Below are positions 32,184 through 45,478 of a DNA stretch of 64,000 nt, piece by piece. A program made the translations under genes and the position numbers. The number at the start of each line of letters is the position of its first letter. The first letter of the stretch is position 1. The notes beneath the pieces are model-generated. The model made no database searches, was not told where the DNA came from, and was given only the letters and a program-made list of their open reading frames with translations. This DNA is from Chitinophagales bacterium (GTDB taxonomy: Bacteria; Bacteroidota; Bacteroidia; Chitinophagales; Chitinophagaceae), in contig JAJPKJ010000036.1 of assembly GCA_021323755.1 (NCBI GenBank), forward strand, positions 62,001 to 126,000, in the 5' to 3' direction.

Positions 32184-32555
32184 TTACCCTTGATTATCAG
32201 CGGTTTTTTGCTCTTCAAAAGGTCTTTCAAATCCTCTTCCAAAGCTACGACCACAGCGTTTTTCCCATTCTCCGCGAAATTTTTCTTTTTCTTCGGGAGT
32301 CATATTATCCCAACGTTGCATCATTTTTCTTTTCCACTGATGTTTGCCCCATTGTGCTCCGCGAAATCCGCCGAATAATATTTTGCTTAATATCAATAAG
32401 CCCAATGCCTGCCAAAAATTAATCAGTCCAACATGAACAACTGCAGCAAGCACATTATTCCAAAGTAACATTACGATCACTGAAAAAGCGGCCACCCCCA
32501 ACAATGCAAATGGAATAATTAAAAAAAGTTTAGGTCCTCTAAATCCTCGTTTCAT
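32184..32555 (-). CDS. Small membrane protein encoded after ECF sigma factor
   Basis: A 123-residue protein with two hydrophobic segments (LFLIIPFALLGVAAFSVIVMLL and NFWQALGLLILSKILFGG) and a charged C-terminal helix containing MTPEEKEKFRGEWEKRCG, which resembles the LTPEQ-type motif of Spy/CpxP-like envelope stress proteins. It starts 12 bases after the ECF sigma gene stop, so the two are almost certainly one operon. It could be an anti-sigma-like membrane partner, but it has no known anti-sigma domain; this is inference from position. Confidence 0.75.
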   Translation of the reverse strand: MKRGFRGPKLFLIIPFALLGVAAFSVIVMLLWNNVLAAVVHVGLINFWQALGLLILSKILFGGFRGAQWGKHQWKRKMMQRWDNMTPEEKEKFRGEWEKRCGRSFGRGFERPFEEQKTADNQG

Positions 32556-32567
32556 AAAAATATTTTT

Positions 32568-33152
32568 TTAATAATTAATAATCTCGTTATACAATGTTTG
32601 TAATCGTTCGCGCAAATGCAACACTGCATAGCGTTTGCGCGAGATGAGCGTGTTGATCTGTTCACCCGTTCTTTCCGCAATTTCTTTGAATGGAATATCC
32701 TCGAGTTCATTCCAAACAAAGACTTTCTTTTGTTCTTCAGGCAATTCGTCAAGAGCTTTATCCATGGTATCCCAAAAAATATTGCGCAAATATTCTGTTT
32801 CAGGGTTGTTGCTCTTGTCCATTAATATTTCCCGAAAATTGATTTCGCCTTCCTCGTTCTCAAGTGTGAGCGCATCTTCAAGCAATTCGGGCTTTTTCTT
32901 CCGGTAACTGTCAATTATCTTATTGCGCGCCACCTTAAACAGCCAACTGCTAACCTGCTCAATCGGTTCGCTGTCAACAGTTGCGGTCAGCTGGTACCAC
33001 ACATCCTGCAAAATATCTTCTGCATCTGCTTCATTATTCACCCGTTGGCGAATAAATCCAAAAAGCCGCTTGCCGAACTGGCTAATAACGCTGCTGATAT
33101 TTTTTCGCGATGGGTTGGTCATTACCGGTTGTATCGTCAACATCTCATCCAT
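32568..33152 (-). CDS. ECF-type RNA polymerase sigma factor
   Basis: A 194-residue sigma-70 family protein of the extracytoplasmic function type. Region 2 is seen as RLFGFIRQRVNNEADAEDIL and VSSWLFKVARNKIIDSYRKK (about residues 30-80); region 4 as LDELPEEQKKVFVWNELED then IPFKEIAERTG (about 135-170). It would direct RNA polymerase to a small regulon of envelope genes. The frame has two possible ATG starts (33152 and 10 residues on). Its downstream partner is a small membrane protein. Confidence 0.9.
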   Translation of the reverse strand: MDEMLTIQPVMTNPSRKNISSVISQFGKRLFGFIRQRVNNEADAEDILQDVWYQLTATVDSEPIEQVSSWLFKVARNKIIDSYRKKKPELLEDALTLENEEGEINFREILMDKSNNPETEYLRNIFWDTMDKALDELPEEQKKVFVWNELEDIPFKEIAERTGEQINTLISRKRYAVLHLRERLQTLYNEIINY

Positions 33153-33322: not shown

Positions 33323-34423
33323 ATGCCTATATATATGGATGTTCATATTGTTCCCGGGGTTAAATCAAAAAGTGTGGCCGAAGCACATCAGAAAGATTTG
33401 CACCACCAGGAAGAATTTGGCTGCAATTGTATGACTTATTGGGTAGATGAAGCCCGCGAAAGCATATTTTGTTTAATTGAAGCGCCTGACAAAAAAGCGG
33501 TTGAGGAAATGCATAGCAAAGCGCATGGCCTTGTGCCTAATAAAGTAATAGAAGTCAACAGTTCATTGGTACAATCTTTTTTAGGCCGCATTTATGATCC
33601 TGCAGATGCAATAGTTTCAGATGAAGGTCTGAAGGTTTTTGGTGAACCATCCTTTCGCATTTTATTGGTAACAAGAATCACCGATCCCAATCTGTTAAAA
33701 CATAAACTCGGCAATGAAAGAGCCGATGAATTGTTGAATACATATAATACTGTCATCAGAAAAAATATTTTGCAATATGGAGGAAGGGAGGCCGAACATG
33801 AAGGAAGCAGCTTTATTGTTTCTTTTGATTCGGCTGCAAAAGCCGTAGCATGTGCGTTGGATATTCAAAAAGAAATGCATAATCCGATTTTAAGTCATCT
33901 TGATTTCAGCATTGCGATCAATGCCGGCGAGCCTGTTGAAAACAGCAATAAACTATTTGGCGACACCATTCAATTTGCTGTAAACATGTGCAATATTGCA
34001 AAGGATTTCAAAATCGTGATCGCATCAGCCGTGAAGGAACTCGTTGCAAAGGATTTTTTTCAAGACAGAAGAAAAAATTTGTTAAGCCTGCCTCCACAAG
34101 ATGAAAACCTGTTGAAATTGTTATTTTCAAAATTGGAAGAAAACTGGCAGAATGCAGATTTCGATATCACCCATTATTGCAAAGCAACGGCCATGAGCAG
34201 CTCACAACTGTACAGGAAGACAATCTCCCTGACGGGTTCTTCACCAAATGCGCTTTTAAAAGATTTCAGACTTGAAAAAGCAAAAGAGCTTTTGCGAAAA
34301 CAACATTATAATATTGCTCAAATAACTTTCGATTCTGGATTTACCAGCGCTTCTTATTTCACCAAATGTTTTAAAAAGAAATACGGCTTGCTTCCGATGG
34401 CCTATCTCGACCTGCTTCATTGA
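33323..34423 (+). CDS. DUF4242 - degenerate cyclase - AraC regulator
   Basis: A 366-residue predicted cytoplasmic transcription regulator with three parts. Residues 1-88 are a DUF4242 domain (SCO4226-like, a family with a nickel-binding member): MDVHIVPGVKSKS, LHHQEEFGCNCMTYWVDE and a C-terminal HGLVPNKVIEV. Residues about 110-243 resemble a class III nucleotide cyclase domain (REAEHEGSSFIVSFDSA, FSIAINAGEPVENSNKLFGD, TIQFAVNMCNIA) but both metal-binding Asp positions are replaced, so it should be inactive and may bind a ligand or dimerise. Residues about 265-366 are an AraC-type helix-turn-helix pair (YRKTISLTGSSPNA, FDSGFTSASYFTKCFKKKYG). The next gene downstream encodes an exported DUF4242 protein, with long direct repeats between the two. 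Confidence 0.85.
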   Translation: MPIYMDVHIVPGVKSKSVAEAHQKDLHHQEEFGCNCMTYWVDEARESIFCLIEAPDKKAVEEMHSKAHGLVPNKVIEVNSSLVQSFLGRIYDPADAIVSDEGLKVFGEPSFRILLVTRITDPNLLKHKLGNERADELLNTYNTVIRKNILQYGGREAEHEGSSFIVSFDSAAKAVACALDIQKEMHNPILSHLDFSIAINAGEPVENSNKLFGDTIQFAVNMCNIAKDFKIVIASAVKELVAKDFFQDRRKNLLSLPPQDENLLKLLFSKLEENWQNADFDITHYCKATAMSSSQLYRKTISLTGSSPNALLKDFRLEKAKELLRKQHYNIAQITFDSGFTSASYFTKCFKKKYGLLPMAYLDLLH

Positions 34424-34444
34424 TCATCTCTTATGCGGTTAAAT

Positions 34445-34502
34445 TTTACCATTTATTGAATGATTTGTTTTATATCGTTTACCATTTATTGAACGATTTG
34501 TT
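34445..34502 (+). repeat. Two 25-bp direct repeats, 33 bp apart
   Basis: Copies at 34445-34469 and 34478-34502 begin TTTACCATTTATTGAA and end GATTTGTT, differing at one base (T or C). The period is 33 bp, about three helical turns, which places both copies on one face of the DNA. They lie between the AraC-type regulator gene and the exported DUF4242 gene, where an AraC operator would be expected. Operator function is inference. Confidence 0.75.
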
Positions 34503-34565
34503 ATAGGCTATAGCGATATGTTGATAGTAACTTCAATTATTCTTTTAACTATTAAAAAAAATGTT

Positions 34566-34955
34566 ATGAAAACAATTACCAACAGCGTTATGCTTCTTGC
34601 CACTTTTCTTTTCACTGCTTTTGTTGCAAAAGCACAAACAACGACCGCAACAAATTCACAAACAACAAAATCAGCAACAATGAAAACCTATCTCATCGAG
34701 AGGGACATACCTGATGCAGGTAAATTAACTCCCGAACAATTAAAAGCGATCTCGCAAAAATCATGCAGTGTCCTCAAAGACATGGGTCCGCAAATTGAAT
34801 GGCTACAGAGTTATGTGACCGGTAATAAAATTTACTGCGTTTACAGAGCTGAGAACGAAGATCTGATCAGAGAACATGCAAAAAAAGGTGGATTTCCGGC
34901 TAATGTGATCACCGAAATTTCAACAACAATCAGTCCTGCTACCGCCAAAGAATAA
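34566..34955 (+). CDS. Exported DUF4242 protein
   Basis: A 129-residue protein with a signal peptide (ITNSVMLLATFLFTAFVAKAQ) and a Thr/Asn/Gln linker, then one DUF4242 domain: MKTYLIERDIPDAGKL, TPEQLKAISQKSCSVLKDMG, IYCVYRAENEDLIREHAKKG and GFPANVITEI. The cluster of Cys and His (SCSVLKDMG, YCVYR, REHAKKGG) fits a metal- or ligand-binding role, as reported for the nickel-binding SCO4226, but the ligand here is unknown. It begins after a pair of 25-bp direct repeats and follows a regulator that carries the same domain. ATG at 34566 is chosen because the signal peptide begins there; the frame is open to 34518. Confidence 0.85.
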   Translation: MKTITNSVMLLATFLFTAFVAKAQTTTATNSQTTKSATMKTYLIERDIPDAGKLTPEQLKAISQKSCSVLKDMGPQIEWLQSYVTGNKIYCVYRAENEDLIREHAKKGGFPANVITEISTTISPATAKE

Positions 34956-35031: not shown

Positions 35032-35538
35032 TTAGGAAGAATGATATGTCGTTTCTACTGCAACGCCTTGCGTGAGCGTTTGATAAACGACACAATATCT
35101 TTCTGTAAGTTTTTTTAATGCAGTCATCTGTTCTTCTCCTGCACCCGAATCCAAAATAAACTCCAACCGGATTTTTTGAAATCCCACCGGAGATTCTTTC
35201 GAAACGCCTAATGTGCCTTTGAAATCGAGATCGCCTTCTGCCTTCACTGTTCCGCTTTTGATTTCAACTCCGATTGCGGTTGCTACTGCCTGCAATGTTA
35301 CCCCCGCACAAGCCACCAGGGCTTCCAGAAGCATGTCGCCGGAGCAGGCGAGCATTCCTGTTCCGCCTGTTGCGGGATGCAGGCCAGCTTCGACCATTGC
35401 GCGACCTGTTTCTACATTACAGGATATTCCTTCGCCGATCTTTCCTTCAGCTTTTAATGTGATAATAGCAGACTCTGGTTGGTCGCGATATTTTTCTTTA
35501 AGAGGAGCCTGCAGGTTTTTTAGTTCAGTTGCATTCAT
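35032..35538 (-). CDS. OsmC-family protein
   Basis: A 168-residue member of the OsmC/Ohr peroxiredoxin-like superfamily. The family pattern is visible: GEGISCNVETGRAMVEAG (first conserved Cys about residue 40) and the GGTGMLACSGDMLLEALVACAGVTLQAVA helix with the second Cys pair (about 64 and 77). Members reduce organic or fatty hydroperoxides or act in osmotic stress. Subtype is not clear. Convergent with the exported DUF4242 gene; the shared terminator suggests separate transcripts. Confidence 0.85.
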   Translation of the reverse strand: MNATELKNLQAPLKEKYRDQPESAIITLKAEGKIGEGISCNVETGRAMVEAGLHPATGGTGMLACSGDMLLEALVACAGVTLQAVATAIGVEIKSGTVKAEGDLDFKGTLGVSKESPVGFQKIRLEFILDSGAGEEQMTALKKLTERYCVVYQTLTQGVAVETTYHSS

Positions 35539-35622: not shown

Positions 35623-36903
35623 TCAACTCACTTCAAACAATTCCTCCCATCTTGTACTATATCTTTCGGAACGAAGTTCCTGGCGCATTTTCCAATCTTT
35701 ATTAACGCCGGACGCGCCAAATTTTACTACATCATCCCGCATGCTGAAATTTACATTATCAACTGCGCTCATTAAAAAACGATGAACTCCTTTCGATCCG
35801 TCTGAAAAAAAATTTCCCTGGATAGATCTATCCGGAACCAATCCGCTCAGCATTACTCCGGCTTTTTTATATGCTCTTCCATTCTCAAAAATATCATCGA
35901 GCAATCTTACTGCGGGTTTTATCAATTCATTGGTAAAAGAGGTCGCCGACTCCAGGTTTGCATGTGAGCTGATTGAAGCACCATGATGAAAATCTGCCGA
36001 ATGACTTTCTTCTTTCGGCACAATAAAAACGCTGATCGTGTTTGCCGCACTGTGTTGCCGGCGTAATTTTTCTGCGGCGCGCGATGTATAAGTAGCAATC
36101 GCTTCTTTTAATTCGAATAATTCCGTGACCGGTCTTCCAAACATGCGGGTTGTCGCAATCATTTTTTTTGTTTCCAATTCCTTCTTCATAATAATTGATG
36201 GAATGCCCATCAACTCTTTGACCAAGCGAACGCCAACTACTCCGCCCATATTGGTGTGAGCCCATTCGTCGGGCATGTTGCGCAAATCCCATGCGCTCGT
36301 GATTCCCCAGTTGATGAGTTTATTGGCATACGCACCCCCAACGCCCCATATCTCATTGACACGAGTTTGTTGCAATGCAGTTCTTTGTTGTTCTTCAGTT
36401 ATCAATAATGTAACACAATTTGTTTTTGCCTTATCCTTTTTTGCAATGTGATTGGCAATTTTTGCTAATACTTTTGTGGGCGCAACGCCAACTGAAACAG
36501 AAATACCCGTCCACATTTCGACTGTTTCTTTTAATTCATTTGCAAATTTTTCCAATTGCTCAAATGGGATCTTATCAAGATTCAAAAAAGCTTCGTCGAC
36601 AGAATATACTTCTACATTTTCTTTTCCAACCAGTTCGCGTAATGTGTCCATTACGCGCATACTCATATCTCCGTACAAATGATAATTGGATGAAAAAACC
36701 TTTACGTTATTTTTTTCGATGACGTGCTTTGCCTGAAAATAGGGTCCCGCCATCCTTACCCCAATTTTTTTTGCTTCATCACTTCTGGAAACAATGCAGC
36801 CATCGTTATTGCTTAAGACAACAACGGGCTTGTTCCATAATTCCGGCTTAAACACGCGCTCGCAGGAACAATAAAAACTGTTGCAATCAACAATTGCGTT
36901 CAT
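35623..36903 (-). CDS. umuC: Y-family DNA polymerase, UmuC-like
   Basis: A 426-residue translesion polymerase of the UmuC type. The first acidic motif is AIVDCNSFYCSCERVF (catalytic Asp6), the second is EVYSVDEAFLNL (Asp-Glu, about residue 100), followed by IWGVGGAYANKLINWGITS as the helix-hairpin-helix thumb (about 165-185) and a C-terminal little-finger region. All catalytic acids are present, so it should be active in error-prone bypass of lesions. Its start overlaps the end of the umuD-like gene by four bases (ATGA-type), so the two are translationally coupled. Confidence 0.93.
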   Translation of the reverse strand: MNAIVDCNSFYCSCERVFKPELWNKPVVVLSNNDGCIVSRSDEAKKIGVRMAGPYFQAKHVIEKNNVKVFSSNYHLYGDMSMRVMDTLRELVGKENVEVYSVDEAFLNLDKIPFEQLEKFANELKETVEMWTGISVSVGVAPTKVLAKIANHIAKKDKAKTNCVTLLITEEQQRTALQQTRVNEIWGVGGAYANKLINWGITSAWDLRNMPDEWAHTNMGGVVGVRLVKELMGIPSIIMKKELETKKMIATTRMFGRPVTELFELKEAIATYTSRAAEKLRRQHSAANTISVFIVPKEESHSADFHHGASISSHANLESATSFTNELIKPAVRLLDDIFENGRAYKKAGVMLSGLVPDRSIQGNFFSDGSKGVHRFLMSAVDNVNFSMRDDVVKFGASGVNKDWKMRQELRSERYSTRWEELFEVS

Positions 36904-37337
36904 TGGGGAATATGAATATTATACGTCACCGTCCCCCAAACCGAAAATTCTGCGCTTGAGGTATCAATATCAATCGGCGCCAGCTTATCGGTCTCTGGTA
37001 CCAATCGAATTTTATTGAGTGTTTTTTCAAAACGCCTGATAAGCATTTCCCCATTCAATGTAGCGATCACCACTTTACCATTTGCCGCTTTTATTGAGCG
37101 ATCAACAATTACAATATCCCCATCAAAAATTCCAGCGCCAGTCATCGCATCACCTTTCACACGCATAAAAAAAGTTGCTGGTTTGTTTCGAACCAATTGT
37201 TCATTCAAATCAATGCCCCGCTCCATATAATCATCCGCAGCTGCTGTGAAGCCTGTTGCATTGGCCGTGCGCACATCGCGCTGTGAATAACCCTTAGAAC
37301 CTTTATAGGCTGCTCCATAAAAAATTTCTCCATCCAT
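36900..37337 (-). CDS. umuD: UmuD-like protein lacking the Ser-Lys dyad
   Basis: A 145-residue S24/LexA-family protein in the umuD position upstream of umuC. Fold and alignment are clearly UmuD: AAADDYMERGIDLNEQLVR, KGDAMTGAGIFDGDIVIVD and VVIATLNGEMLIRRFEK. The self-cleavage serine expected in GDSM is Ala64 (codon GCG in KGDAM), and the catalytic lysine expected two residues after the ENGE... strand is Arg101 in NGEMLIRR. The Cys-Gly cleavage site is Thr28-Gly29. By comparison with E. coli UmuD (Ser60, Lys97) it should not cleave itself. It may be a fixed-form polymerase accessory protein, or the activating cleavage is lost. The fold alone is well supported. Confidence 0.85.
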   Translation of the reverse strand: MDGEIFYGAAYKGSKGYSQRDVRTANATGFTAAADDYMERGIDLNEQLVRNKPATFFMRVKGDAMTGAGIFDGDIVIVDRSIKAANGKVVIATLNGEMLIRRFEKTLNKIRLVPETDKLAPIDIDTSSAEFSVWGTVTYNIHIPQ

Positions 37338-39226: not shown

Positions 39227-39409
39227 ATGGAGCTATTTATCAGAGAACGATTGATAAACATCATTGCTGAGCATATTCATGCTGAAGATAATAATGCAAC
39301 AATAAACTTCATTTTTGCAAGCTCCTTTTTTAGTGATGAGTTCAAAGACTATTTATTGAATGATGAGTGCGCGGATGAAGTTTTAAGCAATCAAATAATA
39401 TATCTTTAA
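39227..39409 (+). CDS. Small acidic protein
   Basis: A 60-residue acidic protein (ELFIRERLINIIAEHIHA..., then FKDYLLNDECADEVLSNQ). No signal or membrane segment, no family recognised. A TTG at 39215 overlaps the PA0069-type stop; I prefer ATG at 39227. It lies between two convincing genes on the same strand and would share their transcript. Confidence 0.5.
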   Translation: MELFIRERLINIIAEHIHAEDNNATINFIFASSFFSDEFKDYLLNDECADEVLSNQIIYL

Positions 39410-44722: not shown

Positions 44723-45478
44723 ATGAAAGTATTAATCATTGAAGATGAAAAGCCCGCTTATGAAAATCTGGTAGAAGAATTAATGCAAACAGAAGAGAAT
44801 ATTCAGTCCATTTCTTCCTGTAGCAGCGTTGATGAAAGTATCAAATGGTTAAGTGAAAATCAGCAACCGGATCTCATTCTAATGGACATTCAATTGTCCG
44901 ATGGTTTATCATTCAATATTTTCAAGTCCTGCAATATTAGTTGTCCTGTGATTTTTACAACAGCATTCGATAAATACCTAACTCAGGCTTTTGATTATAA
45001 TAGCATAGATTACTTACTAAAACCCATCGGGCAACACAAATTAAGAACGGCGATACGTAAATATAAAAATCTGCAAAATCATTTTGTCAATAATCATACG
45101 GCATTATTTGATTATTTGAATAATCACGATAAGAAAAAATCACGCATCATTGTAAAAAAAGGTCTAGAGTTTCAAACGGTGAAGCTTGAAGATGTTGTTT
45201 ATTTTTTTACCGAACATAAACTTGTTTTTTTAGTTGATAAAGACAATAGAAAATATCTTGCCGACAAAAATAATTTGAGTGATCTGGAAGAAGAGCTTGA
45301 TAAAAATGTATTTTATCGCGCTAACAGAAAATACATTATCAATGCAAATTTCATTAAACGTTTCAAGCCGCTTGAACGCAGTAAAATAAGTGTGGAACTC
45401 TTATTACAACTGAATGAAGAAATTATTGTAAGCCAGGAAAATGCTGCATCCTTTAAGAAATGGATCAGTGAATTATAA
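44723..45478 (+). CDS. LytTR-family response regulator
   Basis: A 251-residue response regulator. The receiver domain (residues 1-120) has the acidic pocket (IEDEKPAY), phosphoacceptor Asp55 in DLILMDIQLSD, and the Lys in YLLKPIG (about 105). A LytTR DNA-binding domain follows (about 145-250), with FQTVKLEDVVYFFTEHK and FYRANRKYIINANFIKR. It starts 3 bases after its kinase. LytTR regulators bind direct or inverted repeats near their targets; none was clearly identified here. Confidence 0.95.
   Translation: MKVLIIEDEKPAYENLVEELMQTEENIQSISSCSSVDESIKWLSENQQPDLILMDIQLSDGLSFNIFKSCNISCPVIFTTAFDKYLTQAFDYNSIDYLLKPIGQHKLRTAIRKYKNLQNHFVNNHTALFDYLNNHDKKKSRIIVKKGLEFQTVKLEDVVYFFTEHKLVFLVDKDNRKYLADKNNLSDLEEELDKNVFYRANRKYIINANFIKRFKPLERSKISVELLLQLNEEIIVSQENAASFKKWISEL

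Follow-up and report, generated by a model that had tools for sequence, protein, structure and literature searches.

The window analysed here, a 64,000-nucleotide stretch of a Chitinophagales bacterium genome, encodes what is very probably a dedicated one-component activator of the AraC type together with the neighbouring gene that it controls, as judged from its domains, a dead cyclase that would serve as relay, a predicted operator and an exported partner protein. The regulator gene (33323..34423, + strand) codes for 366 amino acids that join an SCO4226-like (DUF4242) domain, a class III cyclase-like pseudoenzyme and an AraC-type helix-turn-helix (HTH). The partner gene (34566..34955, + strand) codes for a 129-residue SCO4226-like protein that is predicted to be exported. 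What is new is a variant architecture of the AraC-type one-component regulator, and no description of a combined SCO4226-like, cyclase and AraC architecture was found in the open-access literature, with subscription papers and preprints outside this coverage.

The three-part regulator proposed in an initial annotation of this DNA was borne out by Pfam, phmmer and AF2/Foldseek analysis. The SCO4226-like domain (residues 1-88, 33323..33586, by Pfam match and regulator alignment) was matched by Pfam over residues 4-78 (E 3.4e-18), and the PF14026 gathering score of 28.5 was passed by both the regulator (66.0 bits) and the partner (96.9 bits); the 4.08 Mb genome gave no further SCO4226-like match at E <= 0.001. 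The AraC-type double HTH (residues 258-362, 34094..34408, by Pfam, phmmer and the model) included HTH_18 at residues 285-362 (E 1.7e-19; 70.3 bits against a cut-off of 33.6) and HTH_AraC (33.3 bits against 26.6), placing the protein in the tandem HTH families PF12833/PF00165. The middle domain (residues 112-250, 33656..34072) was not callable from Pfam alone, as its Guanylate_cyc score fell below the Pfam cut-off (11.9 versus 21.9 bits, E 0.17). A phmmer search of the PDB matched residues 113-250 to the Rv1900c/LipJ structure 1ybt (E 4e-11) and to Ma1120 at about 1e-7 (5d0g, 1.4e-7). The AF2 model, built on 59 aligned regulators (pLDDT 92.8, pTM 0.90), matched class III cyclases in its middle domain (5d0e, TMt 0.69, rmsd 3.5 over 134 columns by Foldseek). 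Cyclase-likeness of this region had been named at the outset as one of two points on which the proposal would stand or fall; phmmer and the predicted fold agree on it, and by both measures the class III cyclase relationship of residues 113-250 is genuine.

Alignment of 85 regulators, with ORFs below 340 amino acids left out (relative loci L092, L105, L137 and one L143 ORF), showed that the SCO4226-like domain was the most conserved by mean column entropy (1.29 bits), followed by the HTH (1.66 bits) and the cyclase-like domain (2.33 bits). The regulator frame was broken into two ORFs in L105 (4001-5097) and L137 (1858-3054), which may reflect decay or misassembly. A scan of species genomes with the N-terminal pattern returned at least 563 stretches encoding relatives, partial relatives included, and the best 80 of these were nearly all Bacteroidota by title, while viral contigs gave one pattern match and no relative. 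Two to three such regulators stood in tandem in four Flavobacteriaceae loci (L108, L110, L114 and L116; 4001 onward). The row in L114 was followed by a SoxA/TsdA-type cytochrome c gene with homologues in L108 and L116, and a Tat-type protein gene followed the row in L114 and L116.

The cyclase-like domain had also been predicted to lack both metal-binding Asp residues of class III cyclases, and this was correct, as the regulator carries R118 and S162 at these columns. Across the alignment the first metal column was Asp in 4/85 regulators and both columns were Asp in a single one, from a Bacteroidales MAG (L134) that lay among the first regulator branches, at an unresolved fork of a rooted quick tree. 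The first two domains of the regulator also occur, without an HTH, in four plasmid-encoded proteins of Alphaproteobacteria, three of them from Rhizobiaceae and one from Azospirillum; the three Rhizobiaceae proteins retained FTDIVGST and KHTGDG, the Azospirillum protein had FTDIVDFT and KRTGDG, and the Ensifer two-domain protein scored 49.1 bits for Guanylate_cyc. Named 'nickel-binding protein' (Ensifer WP_057206949, Agrobacterium WP_080830418), such alphaproteobacterial proteins hold the SCO4226-like and class III cyclase domains in the same order as the regulator, with identities of 39.5% over residues 1-217 and 36.4% over residues 1-234, but unlike the regulator these two have intact catalytic motifs and no HTH. 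The simplest reading of these two-domain relatives is that catalysis was lost and an AraC output gained together. The nearest solved relatives of residues 113-250, the cyclase domains of Rv1900c/LipJ and Ma1120, likewise differ from the regulator in being active enzymes with the metal-binding Asp residues. The photoactivated cyclases OaPAC and bPAC, which were the top Foldseek rows, place a small ferredoxin-like domain before a class III cyclase fold; they differ in having a BLUF photoreceptor, an active enzyme and no HTH, and since the whole-chain TM was about 0.3 the likeness appears to be an analogy in layout only.

The second DUF4242 protein that the initial annotation had placed beside the regulator and outside the cytosol was supported by the PF14026 match (E 8e-28 by Pfam) and an N-terminal hydrophobic segment, from which export is predicted. 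A candidate signal peptide covers residues 1-23 (34566..34634), judged by eye from the hydrophobic run and an AKA/Q junction, and a hydrophobic N-terminal segment was present in 55/60 partners by a simple count. The partner model (pLDDT 84.3, high only in the domain) matched SCO4226 structure 4oi6 (TMt 0.86, rmsd 1.6, 18% identity). An OsmC-like gene (window 35032-35538, Pfam 64 bits) lies convergent with the partner gene, followed by a translesion-polymerase pair at 35623-37337 composed of IMS/DUF4113 (UmuC-like) and Peptidase_S24 (UmuD-like) genes. Divergent from the regulator, positions 32184-33152 encode a sigma-70-like factor (regions 2 and 4) and a small membrane-like protein.

Full-length regulators were found in 17/147 genomes of the same family (18 copies) and the exported partner in 13/147, in all 13 cases downstream of a regulator and within 1.6 kb, so that the pair was present in 13/17 family genomes with a regulator; the partner was near the regulator in 12/17 fetched loci. 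In 27 other family genomes the best partner match did not start before model position 13 and lacked most of the signal part. Among the best 80 of the at least 563 relatives, which are the top-scoring ones and no random sample, a partner accompanied the regulator in 60/80 loci, as the next same-strand ORF in 55, two to four ORFs down in 4 and upstream in 1, and 55/59 downstream partners began within 350 bp of the regulator. The regulator occurred in 15/33 genomes of a genus sample and in 14/296 genomes of a phylum sample. Conservation of the pair in related genomes, the other point named at the outset, was therefore upheld for the family and the best relatives but not across the phylum-wide sample, where the partner was adjacent in only 6/14 regulator genomes (downstream in G000, G034, G241, G326 and G431; upstream in G275). 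The gap between the genes was unusually long in L034 (7144-8461; 1.5 kb) and was filled by clusters of repeats with an 8-bp period and by a duplication at a spacing of 541 bp. A lipoprotein-like gene followed the partner in L065 (5660-6370) and L076 (7094-7723), with a homologue in 13/80 loci by clustering, and the examples scanned gave no above-cut-off match in Pfam or NCBIfam. Neither short SCO4226-like homologues in family genomes (17 loci) nor plasmid homologues (5 of 11 records found) had a consistent partner among their neighbours.

The gap between regulator and partner contains the sequence TTTACCATTTATTGAAYGATTTGTTwTA twice, 33 bp apart, and most relatives carry similar sites within the same gap, conserved across Bacteroidota. 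Alignment of 26 hand-picked sites yielded direct-repeat half-sites approximating TGAAYnAawTTnnTAynA with a 21-bp period. Predicted operator 1 (34436..34474, + strand; PWM 39.3 bits) comprises two direct-repeat half-sites 21 bp apart, the second at 34457-34474, and predicted operator 2 (34469..34507, + strand; 18.8 bits) overlaps it 33 bp downstream with a strong proximal half-site (34490-34507) and a weak distal half. A PWM trained on 13 sites was tested on 71 held-out loci against the 99% level of dinucleotide shuffles, with 8 loci from training genomes and L092 (contig end) left out. Downstream of the regulator the operator passed in 39/52 held-out loci with a partner and failed in 13/52, and passed in 9/19 loci without a partner, the held-out loci being related to the training loci and hence not fully independent; in the control, 1/306 regions upstream of other genes passed. 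Regions upstream of the regulator itself also passed in 14/71 loci, mainly of Flavobacteriaceae, and as these sites lay 44-96 bp before the regulator start they suggest autoregulation in those loci. By sequence, then, the target promoter appears to carry the direct-repeat operator of an AraC/XylS-type system.

Within the whole genome the 21-base operator core was found without mismatch only at the two sites in the regulator-partner gap. A further 13 matches with 2-3 mismatches were detected, 12 of them inside mechanically picked ORFs, and a reversed-pattern control gave 1 match versus 15, so that not every weak match need be due to chance; the window held 3 core matches against 0.06 expected. 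One candidate regulon site at 39348-39368, before an AP_endonuc_2-fold gene, was rejected, as its TATCTTTA box lay 44 bp from the half-site start instead of 37/38 and the site was absent from the top window matches of the full PWM. Minus-strand PWM matches at 45450 (16.4 bits) and 27449 (11.1 bits) were also set aside, being without a -7 box.

The Bacteroidota -7 consensus is given as TAnnTTTG at -12 to -5 (PMC9723704). Of 80 regions examined on the downstream side of the regulator, 60 had a half-site, and in 40 of these 60 the motif TAnnTTT[GA] lay exactly 37/38 bp from the proximal one, with only 5 occurrences elsewhere between 18 and 62 bp; the half-site model includes some of the scored loci and the -7 box was no part of that model. 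The strict box was missing at 37/38 in 20/60 regions, the window among them, which has the non-strict TAACTTCA at 38 bp from the proximal half-site start (34528..34535, + strand), near the consensus, as do L066 and L069. Upstream of the regulator, a strict box at this distance was present in 0/21 regions. A -7 box at -12 to -5 would put the proximal half-site at about -50 to -33, where class II activators bind. In the window, transcription would then begin near 34540, which speaks for 34566 as the start codon. The listed start of the partner ORF, 34518, is probably too early, since it lies 5' of the inferred -7 box whereas relatives conserve the start at 34566. The expectation that the regulator sets expression through its DNA-binding parts is supported by the conserved AraC-type operator and the fixed promoter spacing at the partner gene.

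The operator, the fixed -7 spacing and a core that is perfect only at this locus make activation of the neighbouring gene the most likely role of the regulator. The N-terminal SCO4226-like domain would be the probable input domain and the middle domain, a descendant of class III nucleotidyl cyclases, most likely a dimerising relay from the input to the DNA-binding domain. The C-terminal HTH pair would bind the intergenic direct repeats, with their half-sites 21 bp apart, and the bound dimer, with its proximal half-site reaching the -33 region, would recruit RNA polymerase to the promoter of the partner gene, whose putatively exported product belongs to another SCO4226-like subfamily than the regulator domain. 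We infer from these features DNA binding, activation rather than repression, the dimer relay and the input role of the first domain. The AraC/XylS one-component activators AraC, RhaS and RhaR share the C-terminal HTH_18 with the regulator. The araI site of AraC also consists of direct-repeat half-sites with a 21-bp period, and its proximal half-site extends to the -33/-35 region, as at the operator described here. Arabinose-bound AraC occupies araI1 and araI2, and its binding to araI2 is what brings in RNA polymerase (PMC4760080). In contrast to AraC, the regulator has no AraC-type sugar-binding input and possesses the SCO4226-like domain and the dead cyclase instead. A more far-reaching version, in which the cyclase pseudoenzyme is an allosteric relay defining a new regulator class and the secreted SCO4226-like protein under its control acts on the same chemistry outside the cytosol, is unlikely in our judgement.

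With respect to the signal, a cassette for homeostasis of nickel or another metal, with the regulator as cytosolic metal sensor and the exported copy acting on the metal outside, was judged very unlikely despite several points that favour it. Among solved structures, SCO4226 of Streptomyces coelicolor alone is related in sequence to the first domain of the regulator, sharing its family (PF14026) and fold and M5, D6, H8, H23, D26, W41, C51 and H65, and its structure was also matched by the partner model. It is a stand-alone protein of 82 amino acids, reported to have four nickel ions at the dimer surface, a Kd of 10 uM and a gene induced by nickel; the sites were seen after a soak in 0.8 M NiSO4 (PMC4186839), and their surface position, Kd and soak weigh against the metal reading. 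In the regulator domain D6, H8, D25, C50, H64 and H68 were fixed in 85/85 sequences and H22 in 84/85, a His/Asp/Cys set that hints at a site for a metal, a cofactor or a small ligand and that includes the Ni-2 ligand His23. Of the seven alignable nickel ligands of SCO4226 (H3, H12, H20, H23, E38, D43 and S46), the regulator keeps only H23 and D43 and has lost five. The Ni-1 site is given as D43, S46 and H76 in the same source (PMC4186839); its columns held Asp at D43 in 78/85 and Arg at S46 in 73/85 regulators, and H or Q at D43 in the partner. This ligand set was retained by neither protein, with H76 unaligned as the SCO4226 fragment ends before it. The NCBIfam nickel-binding model NF033706 scored the regulator at 45.7 bits against a cut-off of 125 and gave no partner match at E <= 1. 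Nickel as the specific ligand was thus not supported by the two ligands kept or by the NCBIfam model. Nor did the idea that both copies bind the same ligand survive alignment of 85 regulator and 61 partner domains with the SCO4226 fragment. At the D6, H8, H22 and D25 columns the partner domains had I (61), R (61), S (59) and S (61), and SCO4226 agreed with the regulator; at the C50 and H64 columns the partner domains had C and H. As the two domains differ at fixed polar residues, they appear to belong to distinct SCO4226-like subfamilies, and the alignment does not point to a common ligand site. A zinc-type ABC importer (ZnuA, 183 bits; ABC-3, 141 bits) was encoded near the regulator in one relative only (L046, 1911-3698), four and five ORFs past it on the opposite strand, and no recurring metal-transport gene was found among the neighbours in clusters of at least 3 of the 80 loci.

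The genes near the regulator in other lineages are consistent with a detoxification or redox regulator sensing an oxidant, NO or an organic compound, with a target that varies by lineage; this concerns the signal and is compatible with the activator mechanism, and we hold it tentatively as a fair contender short of an even chance. Single-linkage clustering placed a truncated-haemoglobin gene near the regulator in 10/80 loci and an FAD-linked oxidase in 5/80. Pfam confirmed Bac_globin in L125, L128, L132, L138 and L045 and FAD_binding_4/BBE in L047, L048, L049, L126, L144, L228 and L229, the last with a carbon-nitrogen hydrolase gene besides, while L143 had an N-terminally extended tandem SCO4226-like protein instead. 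The 9/19 held-out loci that passed the operator test without a partner also favour this reading, as does the regulator tree (89 rows), where all 8 globin and 3 FAD rows fell in one 18-row group (SH-aLRT 92) with 3 partner rows; L128 was labelled a partner locus although a globin gene is also present. This tree required 11 changes between six label groups versus a mean of 29 in shuffles, indicating that targets track regulator clades but switched several times. A globin and a non-exported SCO4226-like gene follow the regulator in L135 (5241-5916) and L128 (5565-6254), in opposite orders. A short SCO4226-like gene on an Ilyobacter plasmid (L226) lies near hcp, rubredoxin and MBL-fold hydrolase genes, a hint of NO or oxygen stress, and another stands beside an OsmC homologue in L188, by eye. 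OsmC homologues were clustered close to the pair in 13/80 relatives and one is present in the window, but there it lies on the opposite strand, no globin or oxidase is directly beside the window pair, and adjacency does not give the ligand. Taken together, the targets found in the different lineages speak for chemistry of oxidants, NO or organic compounds no less strongly than for nickel. The further alternative, that the cyclase-like domain binds ATP, cAMP or a similar nucleotide and is itself the sensor, a receiver and not an enzyme, would agree with the cyclase fold of the high-confidence model and with G154, F168, G202, P204 and F212, fixed in 85/85 regulators. We consider it decidedly unlikely, as the metal Asp residues are not retained, most regulators have other residues where the rhizobial proteins have Lys and Arg (K in 9/85 at 158, R in 22/85 at 221) and this domain is the least conserved by the entropies given above.

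In this regulator, read as an activator of its neighbour, a nucleotide cyclase has clearly been recruited into a transcription factor, and two-domain relatives in which the catalytic motifs are retained still exist. The fixed His/Asp/Cys set of the regulator gives an entry point to the function of SCO4226-like domains, and through the predicted operator and promoter spacing the link between regulator and target can be tested directly.
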